A DNA stretch of 41,167 bases from Deltaproteobacteria bacterium (GTDB taxonomy: Bacteria; Bacillota; Desulfotomaculia; Desulfotomaculales; JAGUVT01): the NCBI GenBank assembly GCA_020062745.1, contig JAGUVT010000131.1, forward strand, positions 1 through 41,167. Direction: 5' to 3'. The translations under genes and the position numbers were made by a program. Positions 6,923-20,203 of this stretch are shown here, piece by piece (the stretch's first letter is position 1; the number at the start of each line of letters is the position of its first letter). The notes under the pieces were generated by a model that did no database searches, was not told the origin of the DNA, and was given only the letters and a program-made list of their open reading frames with translations.

Positions 6923-6949
6923 TAATCTGGTATAAGGAAATAATTACCG

Positions 6950-7040
6950 AAAAGAAAGGCAAAGCCACCGAAAGGTGGCGGCGCAAAGCTAAAGGGGCTA
7001 AAGCGGGCACTGGACCGCCACGCCAGCCAGTTGCCGGTAC
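6950..7040 (+). promoter_or_regulatory. Cyclic di-GMP-I (GEMM-I) riboswitch aptamer
   Basis: The GEMM-I hallmarks occur in order. The P1 strands are GGCAA (6958-6962) and TTGCC (7031-7035). A CCACC-GAAA-GGTGG stem-loop carries the GNRA tetraloop, followed by GCGCAAAGC and GGGCTAAAGC, and the closing helix ends CGCCAGCCAGTTGCC. It binds cyclic di-GMP. A terminator hairpin follows at 7055-7084, so it probably acts at transcription elongation on the gene at 7262 and the remnants behind it. Confidence 0.9.
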
Positions 7041-9666: not shown

Positions 9667-9688
9667 ATTGCGAGCGAAGCGAAGCAAT
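9667..9688. repeat. REP-like palindrome, copy 1
   Basis: The sequence attgc-gagcgaagcgaa-gcaat shares the units tgcgagc, cgaagc and gaagcaat with the elements at 24691-24783 and 26710-26737. It directly precedes the truncated riboswitch copy. Confidence 0.6.
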
Positions 9689-9707
9689 TCCATACTTAAA
9701 TAATATA

Positions 9708-9818
9708 GGTGGCGGCGCAAAACTAAAGGGGCTAAAGCGGACCCTGGACCGCCACGCCAGCCAGTTGCCGGTACGAGTTGGATGTGGAAGGCCCCCTTGC
9801 CCGCCGGCAGGGGGGCTT
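9708..9818 (+). repeat. 5'-truncated second copy of the c-di-GMP-I riboswitch and terminator
   Basis: These 111 bases align without gaps to 6974-7084; I count about 9 mismatches by eye. The copy includes the 3' aptamer half (CGCCAGCCAGTTGCC) and the terminator hairpin. It lacks the 5' strands of P1 (GGCAA) and of the GNRA stem, so it cannot fold as an aptamer. The next genes run in the opposite direction, so it controls nothing visible. The rest of 9655-9935 holds no gene I can support. Confidence 0.85.
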
Positions 9819-12724: not shown

Positions 12725-12950
12725 CCCCCCTCTCTACCGGAAGGTTGTTCGTGCCCGTACTCCAGGCAGGTTTCCTGACTCGTGACTTAAACGCCGCTTC
12801 CCCCTTCCCGGGCCAAAAGCCCAGTGGGATACCGGAAGCAGCTACTCACTTACAGTGGCGGGACCGTCCAGGATTCGCACCTGATTCCCTATTATCCCCT
12901 GCTCCTTTTAAGCAAGGGCACCTTGGAGCACGCCATATTAACTTTCCACA
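12725..12950 (-). promoter_or_regulatory. Cobalamin (B12) riboswitch
   Basis: Read on the minus strand, the conserved elements follow in order. The 5' end has aaggtgccc, then ATAATAGGGAAT, CAGGTGCGAATCCTG and GGTCCCGCCACTGTAA. The B12 box AGTCAGGAAACCTGCCT is at 12762-12780. This matches the adenosylcobalamin-type consensus. It controls cbiMNQO. The remaining intergenic bases 12951-13155 hold no gene I can support; a weak hairpin near 13128-13145 may end cbiX transcription. Confidence 0.95.
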
Positions 12951-13612: not shown

Positions 13613-14368
13613 TCAATTAAATATTGATAAAACGGCTCTTAAAAAAACTCCCACGGAGGCATGGTCCTCCAGGCGGGCTGTGGCAGCAGTAGGACGAGAT
13701 TTTTCCGCCACCAGAATACCCAGCCCTTTATCTCTTACAAACCGGAAGGCATCCTCATCAGTCGTATCATCTCCCAGATAAACCGGGAACGCGCCCGGCC
13801 ACCTGCTCAGGAAATCTTCCACCGCTTTTCCTTTCCCGGCATCAGCGGGACGCACTTCGATCACCTTTCTGCCTTCTATCACGTGCCATTCAGGGCAGGG
13901 CAGCAAAGCCCGGCAGAAACCACGAAACGTGTCTATTACCGGAGGAACTGCTTCCGGTGGGGCCAGGCGGTAATGCAAGGCCAGGGCCACTCCCTTGTTT
14001 TCCAGAAGGAAACCGGAAGGAAGCTTTTGCGACAGCCGTACCGCTGCCTCCGCCACTCTTTCCCGGGTCTTCTCCGGAAACGGAATAAAATAAGGCGGGC
14101 CTGGCGGAACGTAACGTTCCACACCATGGACACCCGCCAGGTAAAGACCGTCTACCGGAAGCAGTTGAAAAAGATCGTCCAGGCTGCGGCCGCTGATTAT
14201 AGCTACTTTTAATGAAGCGCACTGCGTCAACCTGTTTACAAGGGCAAGCATTTTCTCAGACGGCCTGGCTTCGGCCGGCGTCGGCCTAATCGGCACCAGC
14301 GTTCCATCATAATCCAGAAAAAGAAAGACCCGGTCTTCTAAAGCCAACTTCGGCAAAATACGATTCAT
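13613..14368 (-). CDS. otsB: Trehalose-6-phosphate phosphatase OtsB
   Basis: A 251-residue HAD phosphatase releasing trehalose from trehalose-6-phosphate. Motif I is FLFLDYDGTLVPI (nucleophile and acid Asp), motif II KVAIISGRS, motif III Lys near VIEVRPADAGKGKAVE, and motif IV YLGDDTTDEDAFR, the OtsB signature. The start lies 3 bases after the otsA stop, so the two are coupled. Together they make trehalose from UDP- (or ADP-) glucose and glucose-6-phosphate. Confidence 0.95.
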   Translation of the reverse strand: MNRILPKLALEDRVFLFLDYDGTLVPIRPTPAEARPSEKMLALVNRLTQCASLKVAIISGRSLDDLFQLLPVDGLYLAGVHGVERYVPPGPPYFIPFPEKTRERVAEAAVRLSQKLPSGFLLENKGVALALHYRLAPPEAVPPVIDTFRGFCRALLPCPEWHVIEGRKVIEVRPADAGKGKAVEDFLSRWPGAFPVYLGDDTTDEDAFRFVRDKGLGILVAEKSRPTAATARLEDHASVGVFLRAVLSIFN

Positions 14369-14371
14369 GCC

Positions 14372-15889
14372 TTATAACCCTTTTGCCAGGTGTTCTCCGG
14401 CATAACGGCCGGTATAACCGGGATTGAGTACACTGGCCTTCTGGTGCAGGTTCTCACGCGGAAAAGAATTTAAAAAACTTGATACCCACCATAAAGAGTC
14501 ATGCTGCAACACCTTCTCTCGCAGCAACAACAAACGTCTCCTTTGCTCAGCCGGGCTCATGGTTAAAGCAAATTTTATTTTTTCCTCCATGTCGTCGATA
14601 TTGTACGGATTAACCAGAACCGCCTCGTTCATCTCTTCGGCCGCGCCGGCAAAACGGCTTAATACCAGCACCCCTTTAAAGTCCGTCTTACTGGCTACAT
14701 ATTCTTTTGCTACCAGGTTCAGCCCGTCCCGCAACGGGGTCACCAGCGCCGCGTCTGCCGCGGCATAAAAAGCAGCCAGTTTTTCTTTCGTAAAAGAACG
14801 GTAGTAGCAATGAACCGGAAGCCACCCCTGCCGGCCGAACCTCCTGTTGATTTGACTTACCAGTTCCTCAACTTCTTTTCTCAACCGGCGGTAGGCCGGC
14901 ACGCCGGACCTGGTAGGAACGGCAATCTGGACGAAAGTAAGCCGGTTCAAGTACTCCGTATTTCTCTCCCAGAAAAGTTCCAGGGCGCGCAATCTTTCCA
15001 GAATTCCCTTGCTGTAATCCAAACGGTCAATAGACAGGGCCAGCAATTCGCTCTTCAGTTCCTGCTTTAACTGGTTAGCTTCCCGTATTACCGTTTCCTT
15101 TCGAGCCAATTCTTGAAACACGGCCGGATCTACCCCTACTGGGAAAGCTCTTACGGCAATGCGACGGCCTTCGTACTCAAGCTCTCCGTGTCTAAAATCA
15201 ACTTCGATCCCCAAAACATCGGAAACGCAGCCCAAAAAATTTTCCACGTAAGCCGGCAAATGGAAGCCGATCAAATCACTACCCAGGATACCTTTCAACA
15301 ATTCTTTGGCCCAGGGCAAGATCCTGAAAACATCCCGTTGGGGAAAAGGAATATGCCAGAAGAAAGATATCTTTAAACTGCTCTTGTAATACCGGAGAAA
15401 AGCAGGCACTAACGACAGGTGATAATCGTGTACCCACACCATGTCCGGCCATTCTATTTCGGCCTGGGCAACCCTGGCAAACTTTCTATTAACAGCCAGG
15501 TAAGTTCGCCAGTACTCATTACGCAAGTGGCACTTTTCAATAAAATAATGACAGAGCGGCCAGAGCACTTGATTGGCAAAACCGTTATAATAACCTTCGA
15601 TGTCTGCAGCCGTGAGGGGCACTTCTCGCCATAAAAAGCCTTTCAAGTCTTGTGAATCGGCATATCTAAGACCATCAACAAGAGACTCACTGCCACTCCA
15701 GGCCACCCAAAGACCCTTCCGCACCTTTAAAACTGGTTCCAGGGCTGACACCAGGCCGCTTACTACATGTACTCTCCTCAACCCGTTGGCTGACTGCTTA
15801 TATTGAAAAGGCCCACGATTTGAAATCAAAACTAACTTACCGGTGTTCGACCAGGCAAACTTAGGTTTTTCTCCAAACACCTTCTTCAC
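14372..15889 (-). CDS. otsA: Trehalose-6-phosphate synthase OtsA (GT20)
   Basis: A 505-residue GT-B glycosyltransferase forming trehalose-6-phosphate. Visible motifs: N-terminal LVLISNRGPF with GLRRVHVVSGLVSAL, WVHDYHLSLVPAFLR, FFWHIPFPQRDVFRILPW, SIDRLDYSKGI (phosphate-binding Arg and Lys) and TPLRDGLNLVAKEYVA (nucleotide-sugar site). Length matches OtsA. A GTG at 15889 has GAGG 7 bases before it; another GTG three codons in is possible. It follows the debranching-like gene by 40 bases and is coupled to otsB. Related GT20 enzymes make glucosylglycerol phosphate, so the acceptor is likely but not certain. Confidence 0.94.
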   Translation of the reverse strand: MKKVFGEKPKFAWSNTGKLVLISNRGPFQYKQSANGLRRVHVVSGLVSALEPVLKVRKGLWVAWSGSESLVDGLRYADSQDLKGFLWREVPLTAADIEGYYNGFANQVLWPLCHYFIEKCHLRNEYWRTYLAVNRKFARVAQAEIEWPDMVWVHDYHLSLVPAFLRYYKSSLKISFFWHIPFPQRDVFRILPWAKELLKGILGSDLIGFHLPAYVENFLGCVSDVLGIEVDFRHGELEYEGRRIAVRAFPVGVDPAVFQELARKETVIREANQLKQELKSELLALSIDRLDYSKGILERLRALELFWERNTEYLNRLTFVQIAVPTRSGVPAYRRLRKEVEELVSQINRRFGRQGWLPVHCYYRSFTKEKLAAFYAAADAALVTPLRDGLNLVAKEYVASKTDFKGVLVLSRFAGAAEEMNEAVLVNPYNIDDMEEKIKFALTMSPAEQRRRLLLLREKVLQHDSLWWVSSFLNSFPRENLHQKASVLNPGYTGRYAGEHLAKGL

Positions 15890-15929: not shown

Positions 15930-18107
15930 TTAAACATCCACAATAACCCTAACATCTCCTTCTTTCCTCAAAAGCTGGCAGTAGGTTCTTCCCCTGCTGC
16001 GGGTAAATTCAACATCCACCTTGCCTCCTCCAACCCGCAAATTCTCTACCAGTAAACTGTTAAGCCAGGTGGGAAGCTGCGGCTTGCTGATCATCAACCC
16101 TTCAGGCGTTGAAGACAGCCCCAGAGATGACTGTAAAAAGAGAAACGTACTTCCTACTGCCCAGGCTTGAGGATCACATGCTATCGGGTAGCGTACCGGC
16201 CCGCCGATGGGGCGCCTGGTAAAACCACAAAAAAGCTCCGGCAGGCGATGGTAAGGAAAATATAATGAAGATTCATAAATGCCGCTGAAAAGTTGCTCTA
16301 AATGAGTAAGTAAATTATACTTCCGCAAGCCGCCGGCAATGATCGAATTGTCATGCGGCCATACTGAACCATTATGATAGCTCATTGGATTATATGCTTT
16401 TTCCCGCGTGCTCATCGTCCTGACCCCCCAGCCCGAGTACATATCAGCCTGGAAAAGGCGCCGGGTAACCTTTAACGCCTTGTCGGCCGGCAATATACCG
16501 GTGAAAAGACAATGCCCCATGTTGGACACCACAGTTTTTACCGGACGCTTATCGCCGTTCAGGGCAAAAACCAGATAATCCTCGCCCGGTACCCAAAAGT
16601 CCCTTAAAAACTGCTCCTGAAGCCTGGCCGCCCGCTTTCTCAACTCTAAAGCCTTTTCCTTATCCCCCAGTGCCTCAAGAACCCCTGCCGCACCCTGCAA
16701 CGCCTTGTAACAGTACGCCTGCACCTCCACCAGCGCGATGGGGCCAGACGGAAGTTTACCATCGGAGTCTATTACTCCATTCCAGGAATCCTTCCAACCC
16801 TGGTTAACCAGGCCGCAAGGCGACTCACTGAGATACTCAATGTAACCGTCCCCATCCAGGTCACCATACTTACGGCACCACTTTAGACAGCCCAACAGTG
16901 CTCCCTTTAAATCTTCAATCAAGCTCCTGTCGCCTGTCCAGTTGTATACTTCAGCCAGTAAAATAACAAACAAAAGCGTACTGTCTACCGACCCGAAATA
17001 CGGATTATGAACGCTTTCCCCGCAGGCCGTCATCTCTCCATAACGCAATTCGTGCATAATTTTCCCCGGACGTTCTTCATTAAACTGATCTATCTTTTTC
17101 CCCTGGTAACAAGCAAGATAACGGAGGGATTTTTTAGCCAGATCCGGATTTAAAGCCAACGTCTGCCAGGAAGTGATCAAAGCATCCCGGCCGAAAGGAG
17201 CGGCAAACCATGGAATACCCGCTTCTACTACCGAACCTTCCGCACGGGTGGTATAAAGAGAGCGTAGATCAGAAACAGCCCGGTTTATAATTTGATTAAA
17301 AACTTGATTGTCCGAAATATAAGAGGTACACTTCTCTTTCCATTCCCTGTGGTTTTTAGACTGATCGATGGCTGCCGAAGAAAAACCAATCACCGGGCTT
17401 GCCGGATTGGAACGAGTCCTCTCACCAATATAAGGTGTTACCCTGAGTGACAGATAAACTTTTTTCTGGGGCGGCAGGTAAAGCTGAAAATTGACAACTG
17501 CTTTATTCTTTTCGACAATATTGATCTCGACCGGCGGCGGTTCAAAAACTATCTCCGTAAAACGCCTTACTCCATCCAGACCTTGATAAGAAAGAGTGAC
17601 AGTATCCTTATTTTTCTCTCCTTCGTGATAATAACCACGCCGGGGGCGGGTAGTGCCGCGCACCTCGAAAATATCCACAAAGTCAGCAGCCAAAGACATA
17701 CTGTAGCCCATTGTTACCGGGAACTCATTAAAGTTAATAAGACGCAGGCGCTGGTAAAAAGAACCTTTAACTACCCGCAAAAGCCTTAAGTGAATACTCT
17801 GAAGAGGAATATTCTCCCCTCCCGGAAGCACTATTTCCGGGTTGGTAAGCTCAATTTGCCCGAAGTGGCCGCGGCGGTTAGTTGAGGAAAGTAATACAAG
17901 CTTGTGTCCTGCCAGGGTGTTTTCAAAACAGCTTAAAAAACGGGTATCATAATAGTAAAAGCCGAGTCCTCCCAGGTTTCCATCCGGAATTTCTCCGTCC
18001 GGAAGAGTAGTTAAAAATAATTCACCTTCCTTTAAAGCTTCAAAGCAGGCCTGAAAATCCCGTGGTACAATGCGTAGATCAGTTATGCAGTAGTTTCCTG
18101 TCTCCAC
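15930..18107 (-). CDS. Glycogen-debranching-like enzyme (amylo-alpha-1,6-glucosidase family)
   Basis: A 725-residue protein of the archaeal/bacterial glycogen debranching family. The N-terminal third is the beta-rich domain (GGLGFYYYDTRFLSCFENTL near residue 48). The C-terminal part is the (alpha/alpha)6 GDE_C-type barrel with GIPWFAAPFGRDALITSWQT, DGDGYIEYL, NQGWKDSWNGVIDSDG, and MSYHNGSVWPHDNSIIAGG. It probably hydrolyses alpha-1,6 branches or related glucosides in the cytoplasm. The GTG start follows GGGAG by 7 bases and overlaps the preceding glycosyltransferase gene by 25 bases. Some relatives act on mannosylglycerate or glucosylglycerate; the neighbouring otsAB leave the exact substrate open. 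Confidence 0.9.
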   Translation of the reverse strand: METGNYCITDLRIVPRDFQACFEALKEGELFLTTLPDGEIPDGNLGGLGFYYYDTRFLSCFENTLAGHKLVLLSSTNRRGHFGQIELTNPEIVLPGGENIPLQSIHLRLLRVVKGSFYQRLRLINFNEFPVTMGYSMSLAADFVDIFEVRGTTRPRRGYYHEGEKNKDTVTLSYQGLDGVRRFTEIVFEPPPVEINIVEKNKAVVNFQLYLPPQKKVYLSLRVTPYIGERTRSNPASPVIGFSSAAIDQSKNHREWKEKCTSYISDNQVFNQIINRAVSDLRSLYTTRAEGSVVEAGIPWFAAPFGRDALITSWQTLALNPDLAKKSLRYLACYQGKKIDQFNEERPGKIMHELRYGEMTACGESVHNPYFGSVDSTLLFVILLAEVYNWTGDRSLIEDLKGALLGCLKWCRKYGDLDGDGYIEYLSESPCGLVNQGWKDSWNGVIDSDGKLPSGPIALVEVQAYCYKALQGAAGVLEALGDKEKALELRKRAARLQEQFLRDFWVPGEDYLVFALNGDKRPVKTVVSNMGHCLFTGILPADKALKVTRRLFQADMYSGWGVRTMSTREKAYNPMSYHNGSVWPHDNSIIAGGLRKYNLLTHLEQLFSGIYESSLYFPYHRLPELFCGFTRRPIGGPVRYPIACDPQAWAVGSTFLFLQSSLGLSSTPEGLMISKPQLPTWLNSLLVENLRVGGGKVDVEFTRSRGRTYCQLLRKEGDVRVIVDV

Positions 18108-19300
18108 TTAAGTACTCCCTTCTTTTCTTCTAACAGCGTATTATAGACAGCTACGGTATTCTTAGTCATAATTTCCTTAGAGAACTTCTCTAAAGCAATA
18201 CGGCGCCCCTGCTGCCCCATTTCCCGGTTCAAGACAGGATCGCGCAATAGCCTCACGCACTGTTCGGCAAGCGATACCGGATCTCCCTTGCTGACGACAA
18301 AACCGTTCACGCCATCGGTTATCACTTCCGGCATACCGCCGGACCTGCTTACAATAACCGGGCGGGCCGTAGCCATAGCCTCAAGCATTACCAGTCCGAA
18401 CGGCTCCTCAAAAACAGACGGGTACACACAAAAATCGGCTATCCGGTACATTTCAGGTATTTCCTCCCAGGAGAAAAACCTGATCAAAACGTTTTCCTGT
18501 AAACCCAGTCCGTTAATTAGATTTCTAATCCTTTCAACCTCACCCTGCTGACAACTGCCCCAATCAACAGTTTTTCCAACCCCGGCCAGCACCAGAATAA
18601 ACTCCGGAAACTCTTCTTTGATCAGCGCCGCTGCTTTTACCACTATATCTGAACCTTTAGCCAGGCTCATCCGGGCCGGATGGAAAATAATTTTCCGGCC
18701 GCGCAAACGCGGATATTTCTTTAACAACAGCGCCCTCTCTCGATCAGAAGGGGGGCTGAATTTCTCCAGGTCGATGCCGTGATGTACTACTGTAACTCGA
18801 TCACCGTTATACCCGGAGCAAACCAATTCTTTTTTTATAAAATGGCTTACCGCAATAACCGTATCCCACTGCCCGGCCAGAGGCAACATCGACTGCCAGA
18901 GCCTGTCCGACCAGACGTTATGAGCGGTCAAGATGAGAGGAACACCAACCCACCTGGCAATTCCCCCTAACACCTGGGCATGAACGGCACTAAAATAATG
19001 CATATTATGGGCATGAATTAAATCGGGCCTGGCCTGGTATAAAAACTCATGAATTTCCCTTCGTATCTGTGCGGCCTTTTCCTCTATATTTTTATTGGAG
19101 AGAGCATTCAAGTCCATCAGCGGCGTTCTTTTAACCAGCATTCCATCATGCCGGGATTCCTCCCGTCGGCCGCCTACCGAACCGGTCAAAAGGGATACCT
19201 CCGCCCCTCCTTTAGCCAATTCTGGCCCCAGCATGGCCAGGTGAGTCTCCACACCACCGATAATTGGCGGGAAAGCCCAGTGCAAAACAGCTATTTTCAA
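18083..19300 (-). CDS. GT4-family glycosyltransferase, first gene of the trehalose/glucan operon
   Basis: A 405-residue GT-B retaining glycosyltransferase. The N-terminus (VLHWAFPPIIGGVETHLAML) has the glycine-rich acceptor loop. The C-terminal half has HPARMSLAKGSDIVVKAA and the EX7E catalytic motif EEPFGLVMLEAMA followed by SGGMPEVI. The start is TTG, 8 bases after GGGAGGT. It opens an operon with the debranching-like enzyme and otsAB and sits behind a consensus promoter and structured leader. It probably transfers glucose in glucan or solute synthesis; the donor and acceptor are not shown by the sequence. Confidence 0.92.
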   Translation of the reverse strand: MKIAVLHWAFPPIIGGVETHLAMLGPELAKGGAEVSLLTGSVGGRREESRHDGMLVKRTPLMDLNALSNKNIEEKAAQIRREIHEFLYQARPDLIHAHNMHYFSAVHAQVLGGIARWVGVPLILTAHNVWSDRLWQSMLPLAGQWDTVIAVSHFIKKELVCSGYNGDRVTVVHHGIDLEKFSPPSDRERALLLKKYPRLRGRKIIFHPARMSLAKGSDIVVKAAALIKEEFPEFILVLAGVGKTVDWGSCQQGEVERIRNLINGLGLQENVLIRFFSWEEIPEMYRIADFCVYPSVFEEPFGLVMLEAMATARPVIVSRSGGMPEVITDGVNGFVVSKGDPVSLAEQCVRLLRDPVLNREMGQQGRRIALEKFSKEIMTKNTVAVYNTLLEEKKGVLKWRQETTA

Positions 19301-19344
19301 GTCCGAGACCTCCCTCGGCAGGTTTTCGACAACACAGGCGCCAC

Positions 19345-19486
19345 CTGATTCTTTAAATAAAAAACTCCCCTTTAAAGGGGAGGTCCTTTATTTAAGCGCT
19401 AATTTTATAAATACCCCCACCCTTAGAGTTCCAACTCTAGATGGATATATACGCCATTTAGCACTCACCTGGGCTAACCGCTAGCA
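19345..19486 (-). promoter_or_regulatory. Structured 5' leader of unassigned class with attenuator hairpins
   Basis: Read on the minus strand from the predicted start near 19480: gcta/tagc (19473-19485) competes with ttagc/gctaa (19458-19477). Then come atgg/ccat (19441-19457), a perfect 7-base stem tagagtt/aactcta (19424-19439), the G-rich segment agggtggggg, and finally a terminator at 19365-19382. The order of small alternative stems followed by a terminator is that of a riboswitch or attenuator. I tested it by eye against T-box, M-box, TPP, FMN, SAM-I, purine, ydaO and GEMM consensus elements and found no match. Confidence 0.55.
19355..19382 (-). terminator. Intrinsic terminator within the leader
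   Basis: On the minus strand the stem ctcccc/ggggag (with ttt-aaa between) is followed by gttttttattt. It lies downstream of the promoter and upstream of the first gene of the operon, so it must be bypassed for expression. Confidence 0.85.
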
Positions 19487-19515
19487 ATTATATTGTAAAA
19501 ATATGCAAATGTCAA
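19487..19515 (-). promoter_or_regulatory. Consensus sigma-A promoter of the trehalose/glucan operon
   Basis: Minus strand TTGACA (19510-19515) and TATAAT (19487-19492) are both perfect, with 17 bases between them. The best promoter in the window; it places transcription start near 19480. Confidence 0.92.
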
Positions 19516-19599: not shown

Positions 19600-20181
19600 T
19601 CATTTAACTGCTCTTAACTTTTGTTTTTGTTCATTGAGCGTACTTTCATACTGGGCATTAAGCCGGCCCACCATTTTCAACCACCCTTCCCGGTAACCGG
19701 GGTGCTTCTCGGGATTGATTTTAACCTTCCTGCCCGCTCTTTTTTCCAAAGCTTTTTGCGCGGCGCCCATCCTGGCGGCAAAACTATTTTTATAGTTGGT
19801 CAAGGCCTGAGCCAGGGCCTGCCGGTAATATTCAAAAAGGTGTTCCAACTGGCTTGAAATCTCCCCCAGGGCATGCTTATCCTGTTTTAAAAGAAATATT
19901 CCTTCCAGTGCCCTTTTATTGTTCTGGCTAATTGTCTCATCAGATGGAAGCATGATATTTTGCAAAAAAGTTTCTTGGGCTCCTTCCATAAGGTACGGTC
20001 TGAACTGTTCCTGGTATTTTGCCAGCCCGGCGGCAAAGTCAAAGTTTTTTTCAGATAGAAAGGCGGCAGCCAGGGCTTTCCCCTTCGGTAGATATTCAAG
20101 ACGGTCAATTTCGGCAGGTGAGACTTCCTTTTGCTGGTATCTCTCCATTGCTTTCTCATAAGCTGTCTTGATTTTTTCCAT
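19600..20181 (-). CDS. Charged coiled-coil protein of unknown function
   Basis: A 193-residue soluble protein that I cannot assign with confidence; its start (MEKIKTAYEKAMERYQQKEV) resembles DUF6657-type proteins. It is helical and charged throughout, with long heptad-like stretches (HALGEISSQLEHLFEYYRQA; AQKALEKRAGRKVK) and no signal peptide or membrane helix. The ATG at 20181 follows GGGAG by about 8 bases; a GTG nine bases earlier is possible. It lies 22 bases downstream of the ABC permease and is probably in that operon. Confidence 0.75.
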   Translation of the reverse strand: MEKIKTAYEKAMERYQQKEVSPAEIDRLEYLPKGKALAAAFLSEKNFDFAAGLAKYQEQFRPYLMEGAQETFLQNIMLPSDETISQNNKRALEGIFLLKQDKHALGEISSQLEHLFEYYRQALAQALTNYKNSFAARMGAAQKALEKRAGRKVKINPEKHPGYREGWLKMVGRLNAQYESTLNEQKQKLRAVK

Positions 20182-20203
20182 TGCTCTCACTCCCTCGTGT
20201 GAC

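Follow-up and report, generated by a model that had tools for sequence, protein, structure and literature searches.

A candidate transcription attenuator before a GT4-debranching-otsA-otsB operon and an apparently undescribed leader RNA before orthologous operons

The operon and its structured leader

The analysed stretch of DNA, here called the window, comprises 41,167 nucleotides and carries on its minus strand an operon for a GT4 glycosyltransferase, a debranching-like enzyme, OtsA and OtsB. This gene content had been proposed in a first-pass annotation of the sequence and was confirmed by Pfam. The genes are preceded by a promoter and an intrinsic terminator:

18083-19300, minus strand: GT4 glycosyltransferase, which opens the operon and starts with TTG (Pfam)
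15930-18107, minus strand: glycogen-debranching-like enzyme, GDE_N_bis and MGH1-like GH (Pfam)
14372-15889, minus strand: otsA, trehalose-6-phosphate synthase family, GT20 (Pfam)
13613-14368, minus strand: otsB, trehalose-phosphatase (Pfam)
19487-19515, minus strand: sigma-70-type promoter TTGACA-N17-TATAAT, 12 of 12 consensus positions matched
19365-19382, minus strand: intrinsic terminator CTCCCCTTTAAAGGGGAG plus TTTTTT (CTCCCCUUUAAAGGGGAG then U6), from a sequence scan and the fold of the full leader

The last gene before the leader encodes a protein with a weak match to DUF6657 (19600-20190, minus strand) and is located downstream of an ABC-2 transporter pair. Beyond the other end of the operon, a Cobalamin riboswitch (127 bits; 12748-12941, minus strand) follows otsB and CbiX, which share its strand, and two c-di-GMP-I riboswitches are found on the plus strand (6948-7038 and 9673-9772), one a strong match of 74.5 bits and the other at the threshold with 36.2 bits.

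The perfect promoter described in the first-pass annotation lies at 19515 to 19487 and is the single exact occurrence of TTGACA-N16-18-TATAAT in the 41-kb window, where 0.01 would be expected. Transcription is expected to start at about 19482-19479, near 19481. The leader, previously given as about 180 bases long, spans the 186 nt that separate TATAAT from the TTG start codon of GT4 (19300, minus strand), and the terminator that had been placed before GT4 was found at 19382 to 19365, extendable with A/U pairs to 19391. Promoter and intrinsic terminator are thus both located upstream of the first gene and all three point in one direction, as in an attenuator. No promoter-like site was found between the terminator and GT4, and therefore the operon should depend on read-through. 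A strong terminator was looked for between 19600 and 19515, and none is present there. A hairpin at the ribosome-binding site before GT4 (19285-19364) was no more stable than those of shuffled sequences.

Folding of the leader yielded the following elements, all on the minus strand:

19393-19467: hairpin of 75 nt composed of P1, P2 and P3 (folding)
19467-19458 with 19402-19393: P1, 10 bp
19450-19439 with 19422-19411: P2, its 3' strand being the G-rich strand
19438-19434 with 19429-19425: P3 (folding)
19458-19477: small early hairpin UUAGC...GCUAA, 5 bp (MFE folds of 60-64 nt transcripts)
19407-19424: candidate antiterminator strand AAGGGUGGGGGUAUUUAU, the 3' strand of P2 (complementarity to the terminator 5' arm and loop)
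19437-19457: possible mini-ORF AUG GCG UAU AUA UCC AUC UAG (MAYISI), read from the sequence, weak

The P1-P3 hairpin is the main structure of the leader and had been missed in the first-pass annotation. It has a folding energy of -25.4 kcal/mol (z = -3.5), which was reached by none of 200 dinucleotide shuffles, and the fold of the whole leader likewise exceeded all 200 shuffles in stability (z = -3.3). An internal loop is formed by 19457-19451 and 19410-19403. In folds of growing transcripts the hairpin remained the MFE structure while the terminator was being transcribed, and the terminator formed afterwards. The smaller elements that had been annotated earlier fared differently. The G-rich strand is present and forms the 3' strand of P2. 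The two small stems, UUAGC (19477-19473) with GCUAA (19462-19458) and GCUA (19485-19482) with UAGC (19476-19473), indeed cannot form together, but the presence of the second one in the RNA is doubtful since its 5' end coincides with or precedes the expected transcription start. A supposedly perfect 7-bp stem (UAGAGUU/AACUCUA) exists as such in the DNA, whereas in the RNA fold it is reduced to 5 bp with a 4-nt loop inside the larger hairpin. The early hairpin at 19458-19477 and P1 are mutually exclusive, as both use GCUAA. The loop of the early hairpin contains AGGUGAG (19470-19464), six bases before the AUG of the mini-ORF, which spans most of the P2 5' strand and has no consistent counterpart among the other leaders examined.

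The strand 19424-19407 can pair with 19391-19374, i.e. the terminator 5' arm and loop, with -16.5 kcal/mol. In this pairing CUCCCC, the terminator 5' arm, is matched by GGGUGGGGG; compared with shuffled leaders the pairing reached p = 0.11, which is not significant taken alone. Formation of a G-quadruplex by GGGUGGGGG was ruled out, as the strand has two G-runs only. Because the hairpin persists, the terminator forms and forcing the antiterminator fold costs about 8 kcal/mol relative to the hairpin state, the default state of the leader should be OFF and relief would be needed for expression.

Leaders of orthologous operons

That the leader matches no known class had been judged by eye, and this was borne out by Rfam 15 covariance models, none of which matched it at the gathering cut-off. 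When gathering and relaxed cut-offs were applied to the window leader and the orthologous loci, no Rfam family was detected in any leader. BLAST of the window leader in 60 relatives returned chance matches only, mostly to the terminator. A single-sequence covariance model of the window hairpin (R1) matched nothing but itself when 113 genomes of the order were searched, whereas a new riboswitch class calls for an aptamer whose sequence and structure are conserved over distant genomes. Among the genomes compared, the family of the window is represented by its own genome alone, leaving no close relatives from which divergence might be judged. The window leader is without covariation because it has no detectable homologue. 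Conservation in homologous operons, which the first-pass annotation had named as a check of its undescribed riboswitch or attenuator, is therefore divided: the sequence of the window leader is not conserved, while the layout recurs and a different-looking leader RNA is present in other families.

Orthologues of GT4 were found in 28 of the 113 genomes of the order and were additionally collected from GTDB contigs and the phylum; the gene order GT4-debranching-otsA is kept in most Bacillota loci. In the 118 nt examined before GT4, an intrinsic terminator was detected in 10 of 26 lineages, counting a lineage as positive if any representative was positive, compared with 0.3 expected in shuffles. 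Among other genes with long free upstream regions the rate was 6 of 105 (Fisher p = 7e-5; p = 0.03 on the 23 GT4 loci of the same scan). Many orthologous operons (Moorella, f4, f7, f16, f17 and others) have no leader terminator in these 118 nt, and thus attenuation is no general requirement of this operon.

For most of the attenuated lineages, the terminator 5' arm finds a better upstream partner in the real leader than in shuffled ones. None of 500 shuffles provided an equally good partner for L033, L037, L044 and L047, and 3 of 500 did so for L065, while p-values of 0.002, 0.0015 and 0.007 were obtained for L150, L147 and L146, respectively. In Desulfofundulus-type leaders the antiterminator pairing is formed by GGUUUUCUCCUGGCCGG against CCGGCAGCAGAAAACC, in others by GUCUCCC against GGGAGAC. 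Leader sequences vary among lineages while the attenuator layout recurs. Carboxydocella thermautotrophica, like Desulfofundulus, carries this operon behind a leader of attenuator-like build. The consensus fold of the Desulfofundulus-group leaders consists chiefly of the terminator and displays no covariation. A single short motif common to all leaders was also sought; AUAUGG-like words were mildly enriched, mostly through related genomes, and were dropped.

Two further kinds of leader were observed before GT4. About 100 nt upstream of the gene, three Thermincola-like loci (L157, L159, L161) carry another conserved leader that lacks a terminator, GGAGGAUAAAU-UUGGCAGAAA-UUGUCGC...GCGAAUACAAU...UGAAUAAGGUAAAAAAGAGAUGGAGGUGAUG, possibly a translational switch. 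In HGW-Firmicutes-14 (L071/L154) the leader is long and structured, with AUGGGAAUAGCCGGGUGGAUGCAAGUCCGACACGG and a GGCGGGGGAC terminator; by eye it resembles a cobalamin core, and no Rfam match was obtained at relaxed cut-off.

Of greatest interest is a finding made beyond the window, an apparently undescribed family of leader RNA before the same operon in several families. This GUCUCC leader, which is conserved and apparently undescribed, consists of a hairpin exposing GUCUCC and a terminator GGGAGAC/GUCUCCC. In the families f8 and f5 (L033, L034, L035), GUCUCCC is followed by UAAUUUC-loop-GAAAUUA within a long P1. The GUCUCC partner strand lies inside a stable P1-P3-like hairpin in L033, L034, L035, L065, L146, L147 and L150 (z -3.2 to -6.7). 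When a covariance model of L033, L034 and L035 (R2) was searched in 398 genomes of the phylum, its top two matches, L140 (E 3.9e-7) and L141 (E 0.002), were located directly before GT4 in two unrelated families. A second model from which L150 had been left out (R3) recovered L150 directly before GT4 as the best match in its genome. In one genome (G222), R3 matched a complete second copy of the element, which has the same GUCUCC/GGGAGAC terminator and is placed before a gene for a NEW3-domain protein and an ABC transporter. This copy (L174 / L190, C1:2898345 on), with the NEW3-domain protein being a secreted one, suggests a small regulon.

The six-sequence GUCUCC alignment including the terminator reached z = -11.8 in a column shuffle, a lenient control in which dinucleotides are not kept. 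The core displays no covariation because its sequence is almost invariant. In three aligned P1 hairpins, 3 pairs change on both sides, a number equalled by 35 of 500 shuffles in a set that is too small. The GUCUCC leaders are absent from Rfam. A search of the 398 genomes with the three-strand switch pattern gave three real copies besides two matches that are probably due to chance, and the element looks rare. Weak R3 matches (L178-L180) and pattern matches in G338 and G448 look like chance in coding DNA and were rejected. In the leaders L033 and L065, which belong to two distant lineages, a start-stop mini-ORF (AAGGA, then AUG UAA) is conserved at the base of P1.

The GUCUCC leaders (L033, L034, L035, L065, L146, L147, L150, L174) share with the window a stable extended hairpin that contains a candidate antiterminator strand and is followed by a terminator, and, except for L174, the same first gene GT4. 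In contrast, the candidate antiterminator strand is the pyrimidine-rich 5' strand (GUCUCC) in the GUCUCC leaders and the purine-rich 3' strand in the window, and the sequences are not alignable. The window leader has no GUCUCC strand that could pair with a terminator arm GGGAGAC. Because R2 and R3 matched neither the window nor its genome, the terminator arm is CUCCCC and the candidate antiterminator strand lies on the other side of P2, the window is not placed among the GUCUCC leaders; it resembles them in layout, and relatedness is not supported by the tests made.

Proposed attenuation and alternative explanations

The promoter, the hairpin and the terminator are read directly in the sequence of the window, and we infer the switch between two folds from complementarity and from the orthologous leaders. 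Taken together, the anatomy of the leader, the orthologous terminators above the rate of other genes, the antiterminator strands in most of these leaders and the blind recovery of a leader RNA before GT4 point to the attenuator proposed in the first-pass annotation: the window leader is probably a transcription attenuator, OFF by default, of the GT4-debranching-otsA-otsB operon. Transcripts would start near 19481 from the near-consensus promoter, and the P1-P2-P3 hairpin would form and lock the G-rich strand 19424-19407 into P2. The terminator at 19382-19365 would then fold, and most transcription would stop before GT4. If P1/P2 is opened or delayed by a signal, the G-rich strand may become free to pair with the terminator 5' arm, and with this antiterminator RNA polymerase would read on into GT4-debranching-otsA-otsB. 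The signal could be a metabolite or ion, a protein that binds the RNA, or a ribosome translating the mini-ORF.

An antitermination protein that binds the hairpin and works in a BglG/LicT-, ANTAR- or TRAP-like manner has a modest chance at best. Family-specific leader sequences with a shared outcome would fit co-evolving pairs of protein and RNA, and the Desulfofundulus-type leaders have strong antiterminator strands, yet are too short for a large aptamer. However, no known binding motif was recognised and the operon contains no candidate protein. A riboswitch for a metabolite or ion, in which ligand binding would stabilise the P1-P3 hairpin as an aptamer and so promote termination, appears unlikely. 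The order of aptamer-like hairpin, antiterminator and terminator, and an internal loop (see above) that could hold a ligand, are consistent with it, as are the second GUCUCC copy before a transporter operon in one genome and the fact that the GUCUCC leaders keep the sequence of their core and not pairing alone (alignment A8), as aptamers do. Against it, the window leader has no Rfam match and a sequence private to one genome, its hairpin is a single rod with neither junction nor pseudoknot, and unrelated leader sequences in most lineages would be unusual for one aptamer class.

We regard attenuation by a leader peptide as quite improbable. A ribosome on MAYISI (19457-19437) would cover the P2 5' strand and free the G-rich strand, so that the operon is transcribed; the AGGUGAG and the extent of the ORF over this strand agree with such a role, as does the well-placed AAGGA before AUG-UAA of L033 and L065, at the same place relative to P1. 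However, the mini-ORF has no run of one codon type, ORFs this short arise by chance, and no consistent mini-ORF was found in L034, L035, L146, L147, L150 or the Desulfofundulus group. It is equally improbable that the element does not regulate GT4 at all: an sRNA gene with its own promoter and terminator would have the same anatomy (promoter, ~120 nt, terminator), and the terminator could serve the operon upstream, whose DUF6657 gene stops at 19600 with no strong terminator between there and 19515. Both are less likely because the terminator is not followed by any promoter-like site before GT4, because in several orthologous loci it ends just before the ribosome-binding site with little room for a promoter, and because a terminator stands at the corresponding position behind unrelated neighbours in other lineages.

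A limited literature search yielded no report of attenuation control of trehalose/glucan synthesis. As a speculation with a low chance of being right, the GT4-debranching-otsA operons of the phylum could stand under an undescribed attenuator RNA family, comprising the GUCUCC leader together with forms that diverged from it or took its place, as in the window, and sensing one shared signal, possibly a sugar phosphate, a nucleotide sugar or an osmotic ion; this would be a new riboswitch class or an RNA-protein regulon. If true, the operon in thermophilic Desulfotomaculum-/Moorella-like bacteria would be a test case for the sensing of a sugar, stress or osmotic signal by RNA. The GUCUCC leader, in which terminator and antiterminator are defined and which in one genome has a second target operon, offers a concrete RNA for a ligand or protein search.

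Comparison with known attenuators

Among the families in Rfam, the best weak match of the window leader was PyrG_leader (RF02371). The likeness covers the terminator and the A/U-rich run preceding it; with 28.7 bits the match is far below the gathering cut-off of 65, and the context of the window is sugar metabolism and not pyrG. The window leader also differs from the Bacillota attenuators that employ intrinsic terminators (pyr, trp/TRAP, LicT/SacY, T-box and riboswitch platforms) in that it contains no recognised sensor domain or binding site and matches no Rfam family. With these systems it shares a strong promoter, a Rho-independent terminator and, putatively, alternative pairing.
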